22,539 nt of DNA from IMG/VR virus record IMGVR_UViG_3300035698_002920, positions 1 to 22,539 of that record, one strand, 5' to 3'. The notes below the pieces were generated by a model. It saw only the letters and a program-made list of their open reading frames with translations, was not told the origin of the DNA and searched no databases. The first letter of the stretch is position 1; every line of letters begins with the position of its first letter. Position numbers and translations under genes: made by a program. Below, piece by piece: positions 5,044-17,787 of the stretch. Source of the DNA: a virus.

Positions 5044-5143
5044 TAATCCGGTCGACGGCGGTGGCTGGGAAGATACCCCCGCGAATCTAGCCAAGGCCAC
5101 GCGCCAGGCAAACGACTACATCAACCCGAGCGAACGCACATGA
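4952..5143 (+). CDS. 63-residue protein upstream of terminase
   Basis: The ATG at 4952 has an excellent SD (AGGAGG, eight-base spacing), so the start is credible even though it lies inside the previous gene. The protein is polar and Gly/Asn/Lys-rich (KGKIRQIDLAGKNKGKPALN), ending in YINPSERT. Its stop overlaps the terminase ATG as ATGA. It could be a small packaging accessory, but no family is recognised. Confidence 0.65.
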   Translation: MPVEPKLYKGKIRQIDLAGKNKGKPALNKNDNPVDGGGWEDTPANLAKATRQANDYINPSERT

Positions 5144-6666
5144 CCTTCGACGCATCTGACTATGGGGCAATACCTGAGTACGTGCCCGAACCTACCCCCA
5201 GGCTGTTCCATGCCAGCAAAAGGTTTGTGCGTGGACTCAAGGGCCCTGTAGGCAGTAGCAAGTCCAGCGCATGCTGTGAGGATCTCCTGATGAAGGCGTT
5301 CAATCAGAAGCCTTGGAAGGATGGTGTTCGCCGTACTCGGTTCGCAATTATTAGAAAAACCTATAACGAACTCTTAAACACAACGATAAAGACCTGGCAG
5401 GAGTGGTGTCCGGAAGCAGCAATGCACATCACAATGTCTCCCCCGCCTCACGGCCGCATGGTCAAGAAGCTCGCTGACGGAACTACGGTCGACATGGAGG
5501 TTATCTTCCTGGCCCTCGATGAGGAGAAGGACGTCGACAAGCTCAGATCGCTCGAGCTGACAATGGCATGGTTCAATGAGGCAAAGGAGATACTGAAGGC
5601 CCACGTTGACATGGCTACCTCCCGTGTCCGTAGATACCCTTCCCCCAAACTCGGAGGCCCGTCATTCACTGGCATTATCATGGACACCAACCCGCCGCAT
5701 GATAAGAGCTGGTGGTACAAGCTGTCCGAGCTGGAGTGTCCCAAGAACTATGAATTCTTCGACCAACCTCCAGCCGTGATCGAGGTCCCGCGCAAGAACG
5801 ACGATGATCCTCTTCAGTTTATCCCTAACCAGGGCCAGGGCATCTACCCACCGGCAGAGAACATCAGGAATCTGAACGGTGGCTTCCTGTACTACATGGA
5901 GCAGATAGGCGGCAAGGACCGGGACTGGATCAGGGTCAACCTGGAGGGACTGTACGGACAGACTCTCGAGGGCAAGCCGATCTATCACGAATACAACGAT
6001 GATATCCACTGTGCGAAATTCGATCTTAAGGTAATGCGCGGTCTTCCGATCATCGTAGGCATGGATCTTGGTCTTACTCCGTCGGTGGTGTTCCTGCAGA
6101 TGTCTCCCATGGGGCAGCTTCGAATTGTTGACGAGCTCTGGTCAGATGATCTTGGGATACGATCGTTTGCCCGTGATCACCTCGTTCCGCACGTCAGGAA
6201 CAACTACGAGGGTATGGAGCTGACCTATGTAATCGATCCAGCCGGTAAGCAGCGGGACCAGAACACCGAGATAACCACGCTCGAGGTTCTGGCCGAGTGC
6301 GGCTTGCGGGCTGAACTGGCATCTACCAATTCATTCGAAGCCAGGCGCGAAGCTGTAGCGTACTTCATGTTACAGGCCAGGGACGGTATGGCCGGCTTCA
6401 TGATCTCGAAGAAGTGTGACCGGATCCGCACAGCATGCAAGGGCGGCTACTGTTTCAAGATGCGGCGAGGATCCGAGGGAGTCACGTATGCAGACAGACC
6501 CGATAAGCACAATCCCTACACGCATATATCTGATGCTCTGCAGTACGGAGCGCTCGCGTTCCGCAGTGGATATGTCCAGAGCAGGGGCCCCCAAGGGGCT
6601 CCAGTTGGAGATGGTCAGGTACATGCCCTGCCGGTCGAACAAGTCAACGCTGACGGATGGACGTGA
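5140..6666 (+). CDS. terL: Large terminase subunit (DNA packaging ATPase/nuclease)
   Basis: The gene encodes 508 residues, a normal length for a TerL. The ATPase domain has a Walker A at residues 35-42 (GPVGSSKS), a Walker B with its catalytic Glu at 142-147 (MAWFNE, E147), and the DTNPP motif at 182-186. The RNase H-like nuclease domain starts about residue 300. Asp309 in GMDLGLTPS, Asp366 in VIDPAG and Asp465 in HISDALQYG make a plausible metal-binding triad. TerL docks on the portal, pumps DNA into the procapsid and cuts the concatemer. It starts in an ATGA overlap and is followed by a short terminator, so it ends a transcription unit. No separate TerS is identified nearby. Confidence 0.95.
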   Translation: MTFDASDYGAIPEYVPEPTPRLFHASKRFVRGLKGPVGSSKSSACCEDLLMKAFNQKPWKDGVRRTRFAIIRKTYNELLNTTIKTWQEWCPEAAMHITMSPPPHGRMVKKLADGTTVDMEVIFLALDEEKDVDKLRSLELTMAWFNEAKEILKAHVDMATSRVRRYPSPKLGGPSFTGIIMDTNPPHDKSWWYKLSELECPKNYEFFDQPPAVIEVPRKNDDDPLQFIPNQGQGIYPPAENIRNLNGGFLYYMEQIGGKDRDWIRVNLEGLYGQTLEGKPIYHEYNDDIHCAKFDLKVMRGLPIIVGMDLGLTPSVVFLQMSPMGQLRIVDELWSDDLGIRSFARDHLVPHVRNNYEGMELTYVIDPAGKQRDQNTEITTLEVLAECGLRAELASTNSFEARREAVAYFMLQARDGMAGFMISKKCDRIRTACKGGYCFKMRRGSEGVTYADRPDKHNPYTHISDALQYGALAFRSGYVQSRGPQGAPVGDGQVHALPVEQVNADGWT

Positions 6667-6669
6667 TCT

Positions 6670-6690
6670 GGGTCATTCTGACCCCTTTTA
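6670..6690 (+). terminator. Short intrinsic terminator after terL
   Basis: Stem GGGTCA (6670-6675) pairs with TGACCC (6679-6684) across a three-base loop, followed by CTTTTATT. The stem is only six base pairs, so termination may be partial. It lies four bases after the terL stop. Confidence 0.55.
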
Positions 6691-6699
6691 TTCGCAGAC

Positions 6700-6729
6700 T
6701 TGACAATCCATTCTCAACTGTGATATACT
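6700..6729 (+). promoter_or_regulatory. Sigma-70-type promoter for the head operon or a small RNA
   Basis: A perfect -35 TTGACA (6700-6705) is followed after 18 bases by TATACT (6724-6729), which is preceded by TGA and so also fits an extended -10 (TGn). The likely start of transcription is near 6736. This is the best promoter-like match I found in the window, and it stands immediately downstream of the terL terminator in the only large non-coding gap. Confidence 0.75.
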
Positions 6730-6735
6730 ATCCGC

Positions 6736-6890
6736 TGTTGAATGGGATAAGGTACAAGATGTGGTGTACGATGTAGCACGCATAAACATATTTTAGGCAA
6801 AGCCAGTAGCGGAGTAAGCTCCCGCCGCTGGCGAACGATTTTCGGAGCACGGCCATCCAGGGCTGGATACTTGGGTGGCCGTGCTCTTTT
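6736..6890 (+). ncRNA. Candidate structured leader or small RNA ahead of portal
   Basis: The stretch 6667-6908 has no convincing ORF. From the predicted start it holds three stems: GTACA/TGTAC (6752-6756 with 6765-6769); an 11-position stem at 6802-6812 with 6822-6832 with one wobble and one mismatch and a nine-base loop; and a strong terminal hairpin (6845-6886) followed by TTTT. The unit promoter-structured RNA-terminator is what a phage small RNA of about 155 nt looks like. It could equally be a 5' leader that controls portal expression by attenuation. There is no tRNA cloverleaf and no riboswitch class that I recognise. Confidence 0.45.
6845..6890 (+). terminator. Strong hairpin with short T-tail before portal
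   Basis: Fourteen pairs, GAGCACGGCCATCC (6845-6858) with 6873-6886 with one G-T wobble, extendable by one A-T and one G-T pair to a loop of about ten bases, then four T. The stem is much stronger than most terminators, but the U-tract is short, so some read-through into the portal gene is expected. It ends 18 bases before the portal start. Confidence 0.55.
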
Positions 6891-6908
6891 GCCGTTTAGG
6901 GACCATAT

Positions 6909-8954
6909 ATGGCTGACCAAGTTCTTAAATTCGCAGACGCCAACGCTGGCAGTCTCATCCATACAGCCAACAATTCCCAGATCCAAGAGCGCGAGCAGGC
7001 CATAAAGGATGCCGAGCTCCTACAGACCGAGATTGCCGTTTCCTCCCTCAGCAGCCACGTCACCGCAGTCTGGGAAGATAACAAGCTCTTCCGGGAGACC
7101 AGCGGGGTCGACGCCAAGATGATCGAGTCCCTGAACCAGCGCAATAGCGAATACGGTCCAGCAAAAATGTCCGAGATCCTACGACAGGGCGGCACCAAGG
7201 TCTTCATGGGGATAACTGGTCTCAAGATTCGAGCGGCTGAGGCATGGCTCTCGGACGTACTCTCTTCGGCCCGGCAGCGGTCCTGGCAACTCAAGCCCAC
7301 ACCGATAGCTGATCTGTCTCCGGAGGCCAGCGAGGGCGTCATCCAGAGCGCCATGCAGGAATGGGCAGCATCTCTACAGGATCCAGAGAACGCCATGGGA
7401 CCCCAGCAGGTTAAGGAAACAGCCGGGAAGATGCGGGACAAGGCGCTCTCTGATCTCCAGGACGAGGCTACCGAACGCTCCGATCGCATGGAGATCAAGA
7501 TCGCTGACCAACTGGCCGAGGGTGGCTGGAAAGACTCTTTCGATGATTTCATCACTGATGTAACGACACTGAAGGCCGGAATTTTGAAAGGACCTATACT
7601 TCAGCGTAAAACAAGACTCGTCTGGAAGAAGGCTGCTTTTGGTGGCAGGACCGTCCCTGTGACGAAAGTAGAGACCATTATGGTCTTCAAGCGGGTCAGT
7701 CCTCTGGACATATATCCTTCGAACGGAGCGGTCCATATCAACGACGGCTCTCTGATCGAGCGCGTCAAGTTCTCCAGGAAGAGTCTCCGGGATATGCGCG
7801 GTCTCAAGGGTTATAGCCAGAAGTCCATTGATCTCGCGCTCCAGCGATACGGAAAAGGTGGGCTGCAGACTCACACTCAGATCGACGGCGAACGTGCCAG
7901 GCTGGAAGACCGAAGCAATAACCTCAACCAGCAGAAGGACTACATCGAGGGTAAGGAATTCTGGGGGAGCGTACAGGGCCAGATGCTTCTGGACCATGGA
8001 ATCTACGTTACCAACAAGAACAAGAAGATCGAGCCACAGGACGAATACGAGATCAACGCCATTCAGGTAGGCAGCTATCTGATCTATGTTGCGTTCAATC
8101 CTGATCCGCTCGGACGTCGACCGTATTCCAAGACCGGCTGGGCAAAGGTGCCCGGGTCATTCTGGTACATGGGGATCCCGGAGCTCATGAAGGATCTTCA
8201 GAGCATCTGTAACGGTGCAATCCGCTCTATGGTCAACAACCTGGCAATCGCGTCCGGGCCACAGGTCGTTATCAACGATATCAAGGCTGTGCCCCCGGGA
8301 GCCAATGTTACGTCGATGTACCCGTGGAAGATCTGGCAGTTTGTCCGGAAGATGCAGAGCCAGGGCAAGCCGATCGACTTCTGGCAACCCCAATCCAATG
8401 CAAAAGAGCTTTTGGCCGTATATGACTTCTTCTCCAAGCTCGCTGACGACTATACCGGAATCCCCGCTTACACGTATGGGAATCAGAATGTGGCCGGCGC
8501 CGGAAGGACCGCGAGCGGATTGTCCATGCTGATGAACAGCGCATCCAGAGGATTGAAGAAGGTGATTGCCCGGATTGACAAGGACGTTGTGGCCGACTGC
8601 GTGACCCGGATCTATGACTGGAACATGCAGTACGACAAGGACGAATCTATCAAGGGTGACGTCGAGATCCAGGCTGACGGGGCACTGGCCGTTCTCATAC
8701 GGGAGCAGCTGGCCGCGCAGCGCATGGAATTCCTGCAGGCAATATCGAATAACGATCTGGCAAAACGGATTATCGGAATCGAGAGATTTGCGAATCTGCT
8801 CCGCGAGATCGTCGTAGTGCTCCAGATGGAGGAGAAAGACATTATCCCCGCAAAGGATGAGATTAAGGTCCTCGCAGCGGAGATGCAGAAAGAAGCCCAG
8901 GCGGCTCAACAAATGGCAATGGCCGAACAACAGCAGAAACAGAAGGCGGCTTAA
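6909..8954 (+). CDS. Portal protein (P22-type podovirus portal)
   Basis: The gene encodes 681 residues, with TAGGGA six bases before the ATG. The ring of portal subunits is the DNA entry point at one capsid vertex, binds TerL during packaging, and later holds the tail. Evidence is its place between terL and scaffold, its length, and the motif around residues 516-545, TGIPAYTYGN followed by GRTASGLSMLMNSA, which is a hallmark of podovirus portals. A long helical crown region follows, and the last 30 residues are Gln/Ala-rich and probably disordered. No truncation is seen. Confidence 0.88.
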   Translation: MADQVLKFADANAGSLIHTANNSQIQEREQAIKDAELLQTEIAVSSLSSHVTAVWEDNKLFRETSGVDAKMIESLNQRNSEYGPAKMSEILRQGGTKVFMGITGLKIRAAEAWLSDVLSSARQRSWQLKPTPIADLSPEASEGVIQSAMQEWAASLQDPENAMGPQQVKETAGKMRDKALSDLQDEATERSDRMEIKIADQLAEGGWKDSFDDFITDVTTLKAGILKGPILQRKTRLVWKKAAFGGRTVPVTKVETIMVFKRVSPLDIYPSNGAVHINDGSLIERVKFSRKSLRDMRGLKGYSQKSIDLALQRYGKGGLQTHTQIDGERARLEDRSNNLNQQKDYIEGKEFWGSVQGQMLLDHGIYVTNKNKKIEPQDEYEINAIQVGSYLIYVAFNPDPLGRRPYSKTGWAKVPGSFWYMGIPELMKDLQSICNGAIRSMVNNLAIASGPQVVINDIKAVPPGANVTSMYPWKIWQFVRKMQSQGKPIDFWQPQSNAKELLAVYDFFSKLADDYTGIPAYTYGNQNVAGAGRTASGLSMLMNSASRGLKKVIARIDKDVVADCVTRIYDWNMQYDKDESIKGDVEIQADGALAVLIREQLAAQRMEFLQAISNNDLAKRIIGIERFANLLREIVVVLQMEEKDIIPAKDEIKVLAAEMQKEAQAAQQMAMAEQQQKQKAA

Positions 8955-8975: not shown

Positions 8976-9917
8976 ATGAGGAAAATAGGTTTCGCAGTAG
9001 CAGTTCTTATGATCGCGACAATCGTAGCCCACGCGGCACCGTATGAGGATCTTGACCTCAACGTATGGCGCATCATCGGCACACAGGTCACGGCCAATGC
9101 GGCCGAGATCAACATTCTGGACGGCATGACGGCCACCACAGCAGAGCTCAATACGCTTGCCAAGTCCGGAGTTGAGGACGGCTTCCCGATGTCCTGGGAT
9201 ATCGAGAATGGAGTTTCGTTCTACGACACGTTCATCAACTGGTCAGTCGATACGGTTACAACCAACCCTACTGCGTGGACATATTCGGGTGACGTTCCCG
9301 GGTTTTCGTACCTGATGCCAGGAACTACAGGCGGCATAGCCAGGATCGCAACATCTACGGGTGACAACGACGAAGTTTACATCCAGCTCGGGTCAGAATA
9401 CGACGAAGAGGCATTTGTGATCGTAACGAACTCTTCGAATAAGATGTGGTGGAAGGCCAGAGTACGCGCTGACAACACGAACTATGCCACGGCCTACTAC
9501 GCTGGACTGGCTGAAGGCGGCTCGGCTGTCACGAACTTCCTGATCGACGATACGGGTGATCCGGCCGGCGTCGACCTGGCAGGTTTCCGCGTCTCCAGTA
9601 ACACCAACAGATATTGGGACGTAATCTTCCGTCAGCAGGGATCGAACCTCATACAGAATACCAGCATTGTGAATAACAACGAGGACTGGCACGAATTCAT
9701 GATCTACTTCGATGGAGTAACCAGCGTGTACTTCTACGCAGATGACGTAGCTGTCCACACAGCGGCCGTCGGAGCAGTGGCAACTGCCTTCCCGGTTGCC
9801 AAAGGACTCATGCCTATCTACGGCGTGAAAAACGGCGAAACCAATTGGCACAGTACATGGGGAGCTGAAGGTGCCGGTCTCGAAGTTCAATGGCATAAGA
9901 TGGGACAGGAACTCTAG
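8976..9917 (+). CDS. Fibre-like virion protein with Sec signal peptide
   Basis: The gene encodes 313 residues, with AAGGAG eight bases upstream. The N-terminus is a classic signal peptide (basic MRK, hydrophobic core, predicted cut AHA|AP near residue 20). Next comes ANAAEINILDGMTATTAELN, the AAEIN.LDG.TATTAELN repeat well known from phage tail fibres. From about residue 70 to the end the sequence is beta-rich with many Trp, Asn and Asp, resembling a jelly-roll/concanavalin-like carbohydrate-binding fold (inference). A fibre between portal and scaffold is an unusual place, and export would be unusual for a virion protein. It may instead be an exported accessory protein. Confidence 0.7.
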   Translation: MRKIGFAVAVLMIATIVAHAAPYEDLDLNVWRIIGTQVTANAAEINILDGMTATTAELNTLAKSGVEDGFPMSWDIENGVSFYDTFINWSVDTVTTNPTAWTYSGDVPGFSYLMPGTTGGIARIATSTGDNDEVYIQLGSEYDEEAFVIVTNSSNKMWWKARVRADNTNYATAYYAGLAEGGSAVTNFLIDDTGDPAGVDLAGFRVSSNTNRYWDVIFRQQGSNLIQNTSIVNNNEDWHEFMIYFDGVTSVYFYADDVAVHTAAVGAVATAFPVAKGLMPIYGVKNGETNWHSTWGAEGAGLEVQWHKMGQEL

Positions 9918-16016: not shown

Positions 16017-16364
16017 ATGACATGCCAGGATGCCAACACGGGGATAAAAGTACAGGTCTCAAGCAAGGCCGCGAATACTGCGTTCAGCATTGTCCGGTCC
16101 GGGACCGGCAACACGCGGACACTCACGATCTCGACAGATACCGCAGGCTCCTACCTATTCCGTATCTGGCTGGTAGATAGCGCGACCGATCGCACGATCA
16201 CACAGCAACCACCGAGCGAGGATCAAACGACTGTCTGGTTCAAGGAGACGCTTTCCACCGGGATTCTGACCCACACGGTTGTTCATAATGGGACGCAGAA
16301 CTGGTACATGAAGGCCGTACTGATAGGGCCGGTTGCAACCTCTGATATTCTGCAGTACACGTAA
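16017..16364 (+). CDS. Small virion-type protein, unknown function
   Basis: The gene encodes 115 residues, with AAGGAGGT about eight bases upstream. It is beta-rich and looks like one small Ig-like or jelly-roll unit (NTRTLTISTDTAGSYLFRIW). It stands between the FCCH-domain protein and a fibre gene, and probably belongs to the tail tip. Not recognised further. Confidence 0.6.
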   Translation: MTCQDANTGIKVQVSSKAANTAFSIVRSGTGNTRTLTISTDTAGSYLFRIWLVDSATDRTITQQPPSEDQTTVWFKETLSTGILTHTVVHNGTQNWYMKAVLIGPVATSDILQYT

Positions 16365-16374
16365 GGAGTTTGAT

Positions 16375-17787
16375 ATGAGAAATGGAATCATTGCTGTCGC
16401 GCTGCTTCTGGCCGTTACAACGGCGAGTGCTCAGAGTCTCAACGTAGTGCCGTCTTCGGACGTGCTGGCTTCTGCCTATGCCGGCAGCGGATCATCCAAT
16501 CGTACAGGCGTGGCGCTTACGAACTTGATTACCGTGCTGGGCACCAGAGAGTGCAATGTCGTTATCGATGGTGGCGAGTGGCTGGTTGCGAACAACGTGA
16601 CATGGCCGACGAACATCACCGTTACCATGACGCCAGGCTCATACTTCAACATCACGAACAGCACGGTCATGAACTTCGAGAGCAACAGCCTGATCGCGCA
16701 TGAGTGGGTTGTCTTTACCGGACTGGGCACGGCTACCGGCGAGGCATCCTTTGTATGGCGTTATCCGATCTGGGGCGATATAGGGCGATTTAACATTGGA
16801 GACGGTCTTCTCGGAACGAACGTGTGGGACTCGAATTACACCATGACCGACGGAACGACGTTCACAGCAAAGGACTTTGTGGCTGGAACAGCGGACGTGT
16901 ACCGACTCGAAGCGGATATCTTTGATATGGGTACTGGGCTTGTAGACGTAGTTGTCGGCGGCACAGGCGACTTCTACCGGATTGAGTCAGATACCTTCGA
17001 TCTGGCTACCGGACTCGTTGATATCGTCAAGGGCGGGACTGCCGATGTTTACCGCGTAAATACTGAAGTGCTTTATATCGACGGCCAGAAGTGGGGCGTT
17101 CAGGCTTCAACCAACATTGCCATTGCCACGAATCAAAATAGGGCTGCTGTGATAGCTATCATTGGCGGCTTATATAGGTATCTACCGGCACTTACTACCG
17201 TAACGATGACGTGGGCTGATGGTACGCATTACTATGATGGAACGATCAGCTTCCAGGGTTTCTTTGGGGCAGGGCAGTTCATACTTCAAGGGAATACCGC
17301 AGAAACCAATTCTGTTTTACACTCGAATCAGACTGCAAGGATTGTATGCGGGTTAACGAATGGAGCTGCCCTTACCGTCGGCAATAATGATTGTAACTTC
17401 TCTATCAAGAATCTGTATATCGCCTCATCTAATGTGAATAAAGGCCTTGAGGTTCTTGGCAACCAGTTCGGGTCAAGGTTCAACACGATCAGTGGTTGCT
17501 ACATAAAGTCCATAGCCCCCGATCCACAGCGAACAAATAATGCTCCACTTATAGCTGTTTACAACGGGAGCGCTTCCATCAGCCACTGCATGTTCGAGTG
17601 GGGCGAGAGCGCTATAGAGGCTGAACGATTCGGCCATATCTACGTTGTATCGAATAGGGCCATAGGGGTGAATTATCCCGACTATGGACTAGCAGCCAAG
17701 GCAGGCGGCGTGATTGCCACGAATGCCGAACAGCCCGTAGGCGCGACCGCTTCGGAACACGCTACATTCGGCGGCATAATCAGGTAA
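16375..17787 (+). CDS. Beta-helix fibre/spike-like protein with signal peptide
   Basis: The start at 16375 is chosen because it has AAGGAG upstream and begins a signal peptide (RNGIIAVALLLAVTTASA, predicted cut ASA|QS); an in-frame ATG at 16333 would remove that logic. It encodes 470 residues. A beta-rich middle contains two direct 25-residue repeats. The second half (INISNSTVMNFESN style in the first third; FSIKNLYIASSNVN and ISHCMFEWGESAI later) reads like a right-handed parallel beta-helix. The tail end (QPVGATASEHATFGG) is like fibre trimer ends. It may bind or cut host polysaccharide, but no catalytic residues are certain. Confidence 0.72.
   Translation: MRNGIIAVALLLAVTTASAQSLNVVPSSDVLASAYAGSGSSNRTGVALTNLITVLGTRECNVVIDGGEWLVANNVTWPTNITVTMTPGSYFNITNSTVMNFESNSLIAHEWVVFTGLGTATGEASFVWRYPIWGDIGRFNIGDGLLGTNVWDSNYTMTDGTTFTAKDFVAGTADVYRLEADIFDMGTGLVDVVVGGTGDFYRIESDTFDLATGLVDIVKGGTADVYRVNTEVLYIDGQKWGVQASTNIAIATNQNRAAVIAIIGGLYRYLPALTTVTMTWADGTHYYDGTISFQGFFGAGQFILQGNTAETNSVLHSNQTARIVCGLTNGAALTVGNNDCNFSIKNLYIASSNVNKGLEVLGNQFGSRFNTISGCYIKSIAPDPQRTNNAPLIAVYNGSASISHCMFEWGESAIEAERFGHIYVVSNRAIGVNYPDYGLAAKAGGVIATNAEQPVGATASEHATFGGIIR
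16900..17049 (+). repeat. Two 75-base direct repeats coding 25 residues each
   Basis: Units begin YRLEADIFDMGTGLVDV (16900-16974) and YRIESDTFDLATGLVDI (16975-17049), followed by the start of a third (YRVNTE). The DNA is diverged though protein is well conserved, so the duplication is old and under selection. This is the kind of repeat that forms fibre shaft turns. Confidence 0.75.

Follow-up and report, generated by a model that had tools for sequence, protein, structure and literature searches.

The 242-nt gap between terL and portal (positions 6667–6908) in a 22.5-kb IMG/VR record of an uncultured virus of bacteria holds an RNA element whose core, at positions 6796–6893, takes the form of a tight, closed four-way junction when folded, and this shape is conserved in at least six related viruses despite an almost complete turnover of the letters. 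Here, "the window" refers to the whole stretch of DNA that was analyzed, at its full length of 22,539 nt. That the shape matters is indicated by the relatives, which keep it with almost entirely different letters. The junction most likely gates the expression of the head-building genes. Compensatory changes give strong evidence for this class of phage RNA, which has no entry in Rfam and occupies the switch point ahead of the head genes; the class is new with respect to Rfam 15 and to those open papers that were searched.

Locus and Fold of the Junction RNA

The gap lies between terL (5140–6666, plus strand; phrog_2, 4.3e-21; PF04466, 1.4e-7) and portal (6909–8954, plus strand; phrog_332, 1.2e-51; PF23899, 1.8e-11), the first gene of the downstream head operon, exactly where the original prediction had placed it. 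That prediction described a promoter, a structured RNA, and a terminator, in this order, as a non-coding unit, and we find strong support for such a unit being real, its stems being kept and covarying in relatives. No DNA similarity of the window to known or cultured phages was found; on the level of proteins, Rhizobium phage RHph_TM3_14A is a distant relative (31% identity for portal, 44% for capsid), and the HMO-2011-like podoviruses are further from the window in portal and capsid. Directly 3′ of terL, a short hairpin followed by TTTT (6670–6688, plus strand) is a candidate, though a weak one, for the terminator of the terL transcript, with a terminator score of −7.9, which is under the threshold.

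In the minimum free energy (MFE) fold, the junction consists of four helices, P1–P4, with four unpaired bases between them, all on the plus strand. The 5′ strand of P1, GGCAAA (6796–6801; pair probabilities 0.77–1.0), forms 6 bp with positions 6888–6893; P2 (6802–6832) is a 12-bp hairpin interrupted by one bulge and one mismatch; P3 (6836–6844) is a small hairpin, of 2–5 bp across the family in the MFE folds and the joint alignment; and P4 (6845–6886), the terminator stem, has 17 bp and an 8-nt loop. The folds, the terminator score, and the alignment agree on the U-run UUUUGCC (6887–6893) as both the terminator tail and, at 6888–6893, the 3′ strand of P1. The original prediction had recognized three stems, which correspond to P2, P3, and P4, and missed the closing helix P1, which makes the structure a four-way junction; its final hairpin with TTTT is likewise present, with 17 bp followed by TTTTGCC rather than 14 pairs.

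The RNA from 6736 to 6895 has a folding energy of −70.4 kcal/mol (z = −5.7). For the core, z is −7.1 on the plus strand and −5.1 on the minus strand, and over the seven carriers described below the values range from −5.8 to −8.4 and from −2.2 to −5.7, respectively; given this weaker fold on the minus strand, the RNA is taken to have the same orientation as the head genes.

On neither strand do the copies have a reading frame over the core in common. As the original prediction had proposed, we searched Rfam: Rfam 15 gave no match at the gathering score in the window or the six relatives, and a search of the gap at E ≤ 5 returned just weak microRNA chance matches. No tRNA or tmRNA was detected at the site in the six relatives by ARAGORN, and there was no Rfam match to either there or in the window. 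A description of this RNA was not found in the open-access papers searched.

Conservation and Covariation

Relatives were collected by scans with portal, capsid, and TerL. Six further distinct IMG/VR contigs (L162, L253, L163, L330, L252, and L256) show this fold in the corresponding position; in all seven carriers, P1 ends 8–17 nt, mostly 15, ahead of the portal ATG. The carrier set thus defined comprises seven distinct sequences, three of them close, L252, of which L329 is a duplicate, being counted once. The capsid of L162 is 83% identical to that of the window, and L176 and L249 are near-copies of L162. Two contigs, L002 and L251, are truncated at the portal start, which leaves them outside this comparison; the edge of L002 keeps just a TTTTGCC. 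All seven carriers group together in the portal tree, as a single clade (98/96).

Independent MFE folds of the single sequences returned the same closed junction in all seven cases, with 0–4 unpaired bases between helices. MAFFT by itself did not align the divergent copies correctly; the joint alignment was therefore made with a covariance model and, being fitted to this model, leans towards the structure; it is for this reason that the single-sequence folds, which are independent of the alignment, and the controls with slid partners matter. Double-sided compensatory changes are seen in 33 of the 41 pairs of the joint alignment (P1, 4 of 6; P2, 12 of 12; P4, 15 of 19), and 94.8% of the cells pair, compared with 68.8% in shuffles and 41–48% with the partners slid; none of 500 shuffles reached the observed covariation. 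RNAalifold on the joint alignment returns the same fold. A covariance model built from L163, L330, and L252 alone recovered the window at full length with 43.7 bits, and L162, L256, and L253 at full length with 31–33 bits, when those stretches alone were searched; with default filters on whole loci, the same model found L256 (E = 1.4e-4) and missed the window. Such a junction is present in 1 of 15,000 random 98-nt windows and in none of 338 portal-upstream regions of non-carriers.

Predicted Promoter and 5′ Part of the Proposed Leader

Upstream of the junction lies a sigma-70-like promoter with a TG extension, TTGACA-18-TATACT (6700–6729, plus strand), which matches 11 of 12 consensus positions and predicts a start near 6736. 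Its parts are as originally described, with TTGACA at 6700–6705, an 18-nt spacer, and TGA-TATACT with the −10 element at 6724–6729. It is the sole 11/12 site in the window, where shuffled windows lead one to expect 0.08 on the plus strand, and 12 of 3,000 shuffles of the gap reached this level. Promoter-like sites at the 9/12 level occur at a chance number in the window, so the case for the promoter rests on the 6700 site and on its conservation in L162, which has the same motif, TTGACAATCCCTTCTCAAATGTGATACTAT. No second strong plus-strand promoter was found upstream of portal, the 15 nt that separate the junction from portal included; these 15 nt (6894–6908, plus strand), directly 3′ of P1, are the ribosome-binding region of portal, with AGGGA. 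A promoter also precedes portal in the non-carrier relatives L003, L024, and L048.

The promoters of the L163, L330, and L252 group are without the standard spacing. Directly before P1, the gaps of these three contigs have the conserved motifs CTTGACTT...TATGRTAGG and GACAATTT, whose spacing is unlike that of a sigma-70 promoter.

The 5′ part of the leader, from the predicted start to the junction (6736–6795, plus strand), is not conserved between clades in the alignments. Leader ORFs of 5–7 residues in the window and L162 were dropped, as they are not conserved in L253, and no conserved leader peptide was found.

A Predicted Terminator within the Junction

A GC-rich hairpin with a U-run directly after it is present in all seven carriers, in which P4 and the U-run score 16–51 as an intrinsic terminator (d'Aubenton-Carafa, threshold 0); P4 of the window with its tail scores +39.9. 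The U-runs are short (3–5 U) and interrupted by bases that P1 needs. Unusual is the partner of this U-run, an A-rich strand that lies some 90 nt upstream and is separated from the terminator stem by P2 and P3. As the sole strong promoter lies upstream of P4, transcripts of the portal operon must read through P4.

We propose, with a confidence that stays a little below even, that the junction is a cis-acting structured leader of the head-morphogenesis operon; the simplest view is that its built-in terminator is incomplete or conditional. Transcription would start near 6736, and the RNA would fold P2, P3, and P4, with P4 and the U-run as a putative intrinsic terminator. The A-rich strand of P1 would pair with the terminator's own U-run and close the four-way junction; P1 presumably stacks on P4, extending the P4 stack into the U-run, so that the two inserted arms would split off the lower stem of the terminator. 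Most transcripts would end near 6893, giving an RNA of ~155 nt with a base-paired 3′ end, and read-through, basal or aided by a putative junction-binding factor, would reach portal and the genes after it. The outcome would be a delayed or tuned expression of the head genes, much as with the lambda late leader, and P2 and P3 would be natural places for such control. An attenuator with classical alternative pairing, which the original prediction had considered, is not visible: no alternative antiterminator fold was found, the whole leader folds with P4 intact, and the leader region is unconserved between clades.

The closest layout is that of phage lambda pR′-6S RNA-tR′, in which a late promoter is followed by a short leader RNA, an intrinsic terminator, and then the morphogenesis and other late genes; other lambdoid late leaders under the control of Q share this order of promoter, short leader, terminator, and late operon. 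The lambda late leader is not known to form a conserved closed four-way junction, whereas the RNA described here does. No Q-family gene was found in these fragments: PF06530 and PF03589 did not match in the eight records searched, but as these may be incomplete, their absence carries little weight. If the gating is true, this would be a new type of late-gene timing by a terminator inside a four-way junction, in which neither Q nor an RNA polymerase of the phage has an obvious part. P4 with its U-run and the A-rich P1 strand also resemble intrinsic terminators in which an upstream A-run pairs with the U-run; here, however, P2 and P3 separate the A-rich strand from the stem, and covariation shows that every one of these elements is kept. 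The put RNA of HK022 is structured, lies just after a phage promoter, and affects transcription termination (PMC9378689), but its tandem hairpins suppress termination downstream, whereas the junction contains a predicted terminator, and no shared structure is demonstrated.

Alternative Functions

The original prediction had offered two readings, a head-operon leader and a stand-alone RNA acting on messages, and the former fits better, because there is no other strong promoter, the position before portal is constant, and almost no stretch is unpaired. A stand-alone, trans-acting small RNA, which would probably work via a protein or as a decoy and leave portal to leaky read-through, is in our estimate unlikely: the predicted promoter and terminator of its own speak for it, as do the closed fold and the paired 3′ end, which are expected of a stable RNA, yet the element always lies directly before the portal ribosome-binding site. 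Hfq-dependent small RNAs have a free, unpaired 3′ U tail. Here neither such a tail nor an unpaired seed is found, as the U-run is the 3′ strand of P1, 0–4 junction bases are unpaired, and the loops are small; with so few free bases in the conserved part and a paired tail, antisense pairing, and with it a message-pairing small RNA, is unlikely. Slightly more likely than the stand-alone RNA, though less so than the leader with a terminator, is an untranslated 5′ structure whose effect on the portal message involves no real termination. It might control or insulate the ribosome-binding site (e.g., as an operator for a head protein), shield the 5′ end of the mRNA, or be processed by RNase III. Such an element of translation or stability is suggested as a possibility by P1, which adjoins the ribosome-binding site of portal at the near-constant spacing given above, and the long P4 duplex is consistent with it, as is the compensatory change that keeps the 3′ strand of P1, which matters solely if the RNA extends there; it needs no U-run after a GC-rich stem, yet one is kept in all seven carriers and scores as a terminator.

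The position between terL and portal, whose products would be its two partners, also raises the question of a discrete packaging-motor RNA that bridges terminase and portal, as does the pRNA of phi29, a three-way junction encoded near the left end of the genome (PMC11476376; PMC5340915); we regard this as very improbable, and it would constitute a second, independent origin of packaging RNA outside the phi29-like phages. The likeness extends to a phage RNA with a closed core of about 100–120 nt, to an association with terminase and portal, which is here one of gene position, and to a conserved shape with variable sequence, as reported for the pRNAs (PMC12670572). On the other side, the junction is four-way in all seven carriers, there is no match to any Rfam family, that of the phi29 pRNA included, and conserved complementary loops were not seen by eye. 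The phi29-like pRNA is thought to compensate for a reduced terminase domain, taking over a function that the nuclease domain has lost (PMC11476376), whereas TerL of the window retains aspartates of its RNase H-type nuclease domain (D309, D366, and D465). Chance inverted repeats without function could be suspected from the chance number of promoter-like and terminator-like patterns that looser settings give in the window overall, but this explanation is refuted by the covariation; the clade-wide conservation and the low background in random windows also speak against it.

Distribution of the Junction RNA

The seven-sequence covariance model makes this RNA class searchable. In 282 sources (about 3.1 Mb), it added no member to the family, L358 (E = 0.59) coming closest among the other full-length matches, and portal-based relatives at 35–42% identity are without the element. 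Both strands of 4.1 Mb were also scanned with a descriptor; family matches fell solely just before portal, and the background elsewhere was scattered. No TerL pattern match in viral contigs was confirmed. A search with the P1/P2 pattern returned L162 and its near-copy L249 besides three chance matches; a 17-base exact pattern of P4 gave two matches at unrelated places, which were discarded as chance. Conserved phage leader RNAs can escape notice because their sequence turns over almost completely.

The sister lineage of the carriers, L254, is without the junction. At 5513–5626, this contig has a different closed multibranched hairpin with an outer stem of about 13 bp (z about −5), ~130 nt upstream of the portal start and before a promoter-like motif; it is possibly a drifted homologue. 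No such hairpin was found in the short stretch present before portal in L257, which lay on a long branch in an initial tree.

Neighboring Genes

The gene directly after portal in the window (8976–9917) encodes a signal-peptide-like N-terminus (MRKIGFAVAVLMIATIVAHA...), which is unusual for a virion gene, and a gene of this kind also follows portal in L251 and L002; the tail-spike-like gene at 16333–17787 likewise has an N-terminus of this type (MRNGIIAVALLLAVTTASA...), equally unusual for a virion gene. The window also encodes a radical SAM protein at 1801–2637 (PF04055; phrog_13321, function unknown), whose counterpart in L176 is 68% identical. tRNA-Gly and tRNA-Asn genes are present in related phage contigs (L163, 917–1006; L253, 1001–1076).
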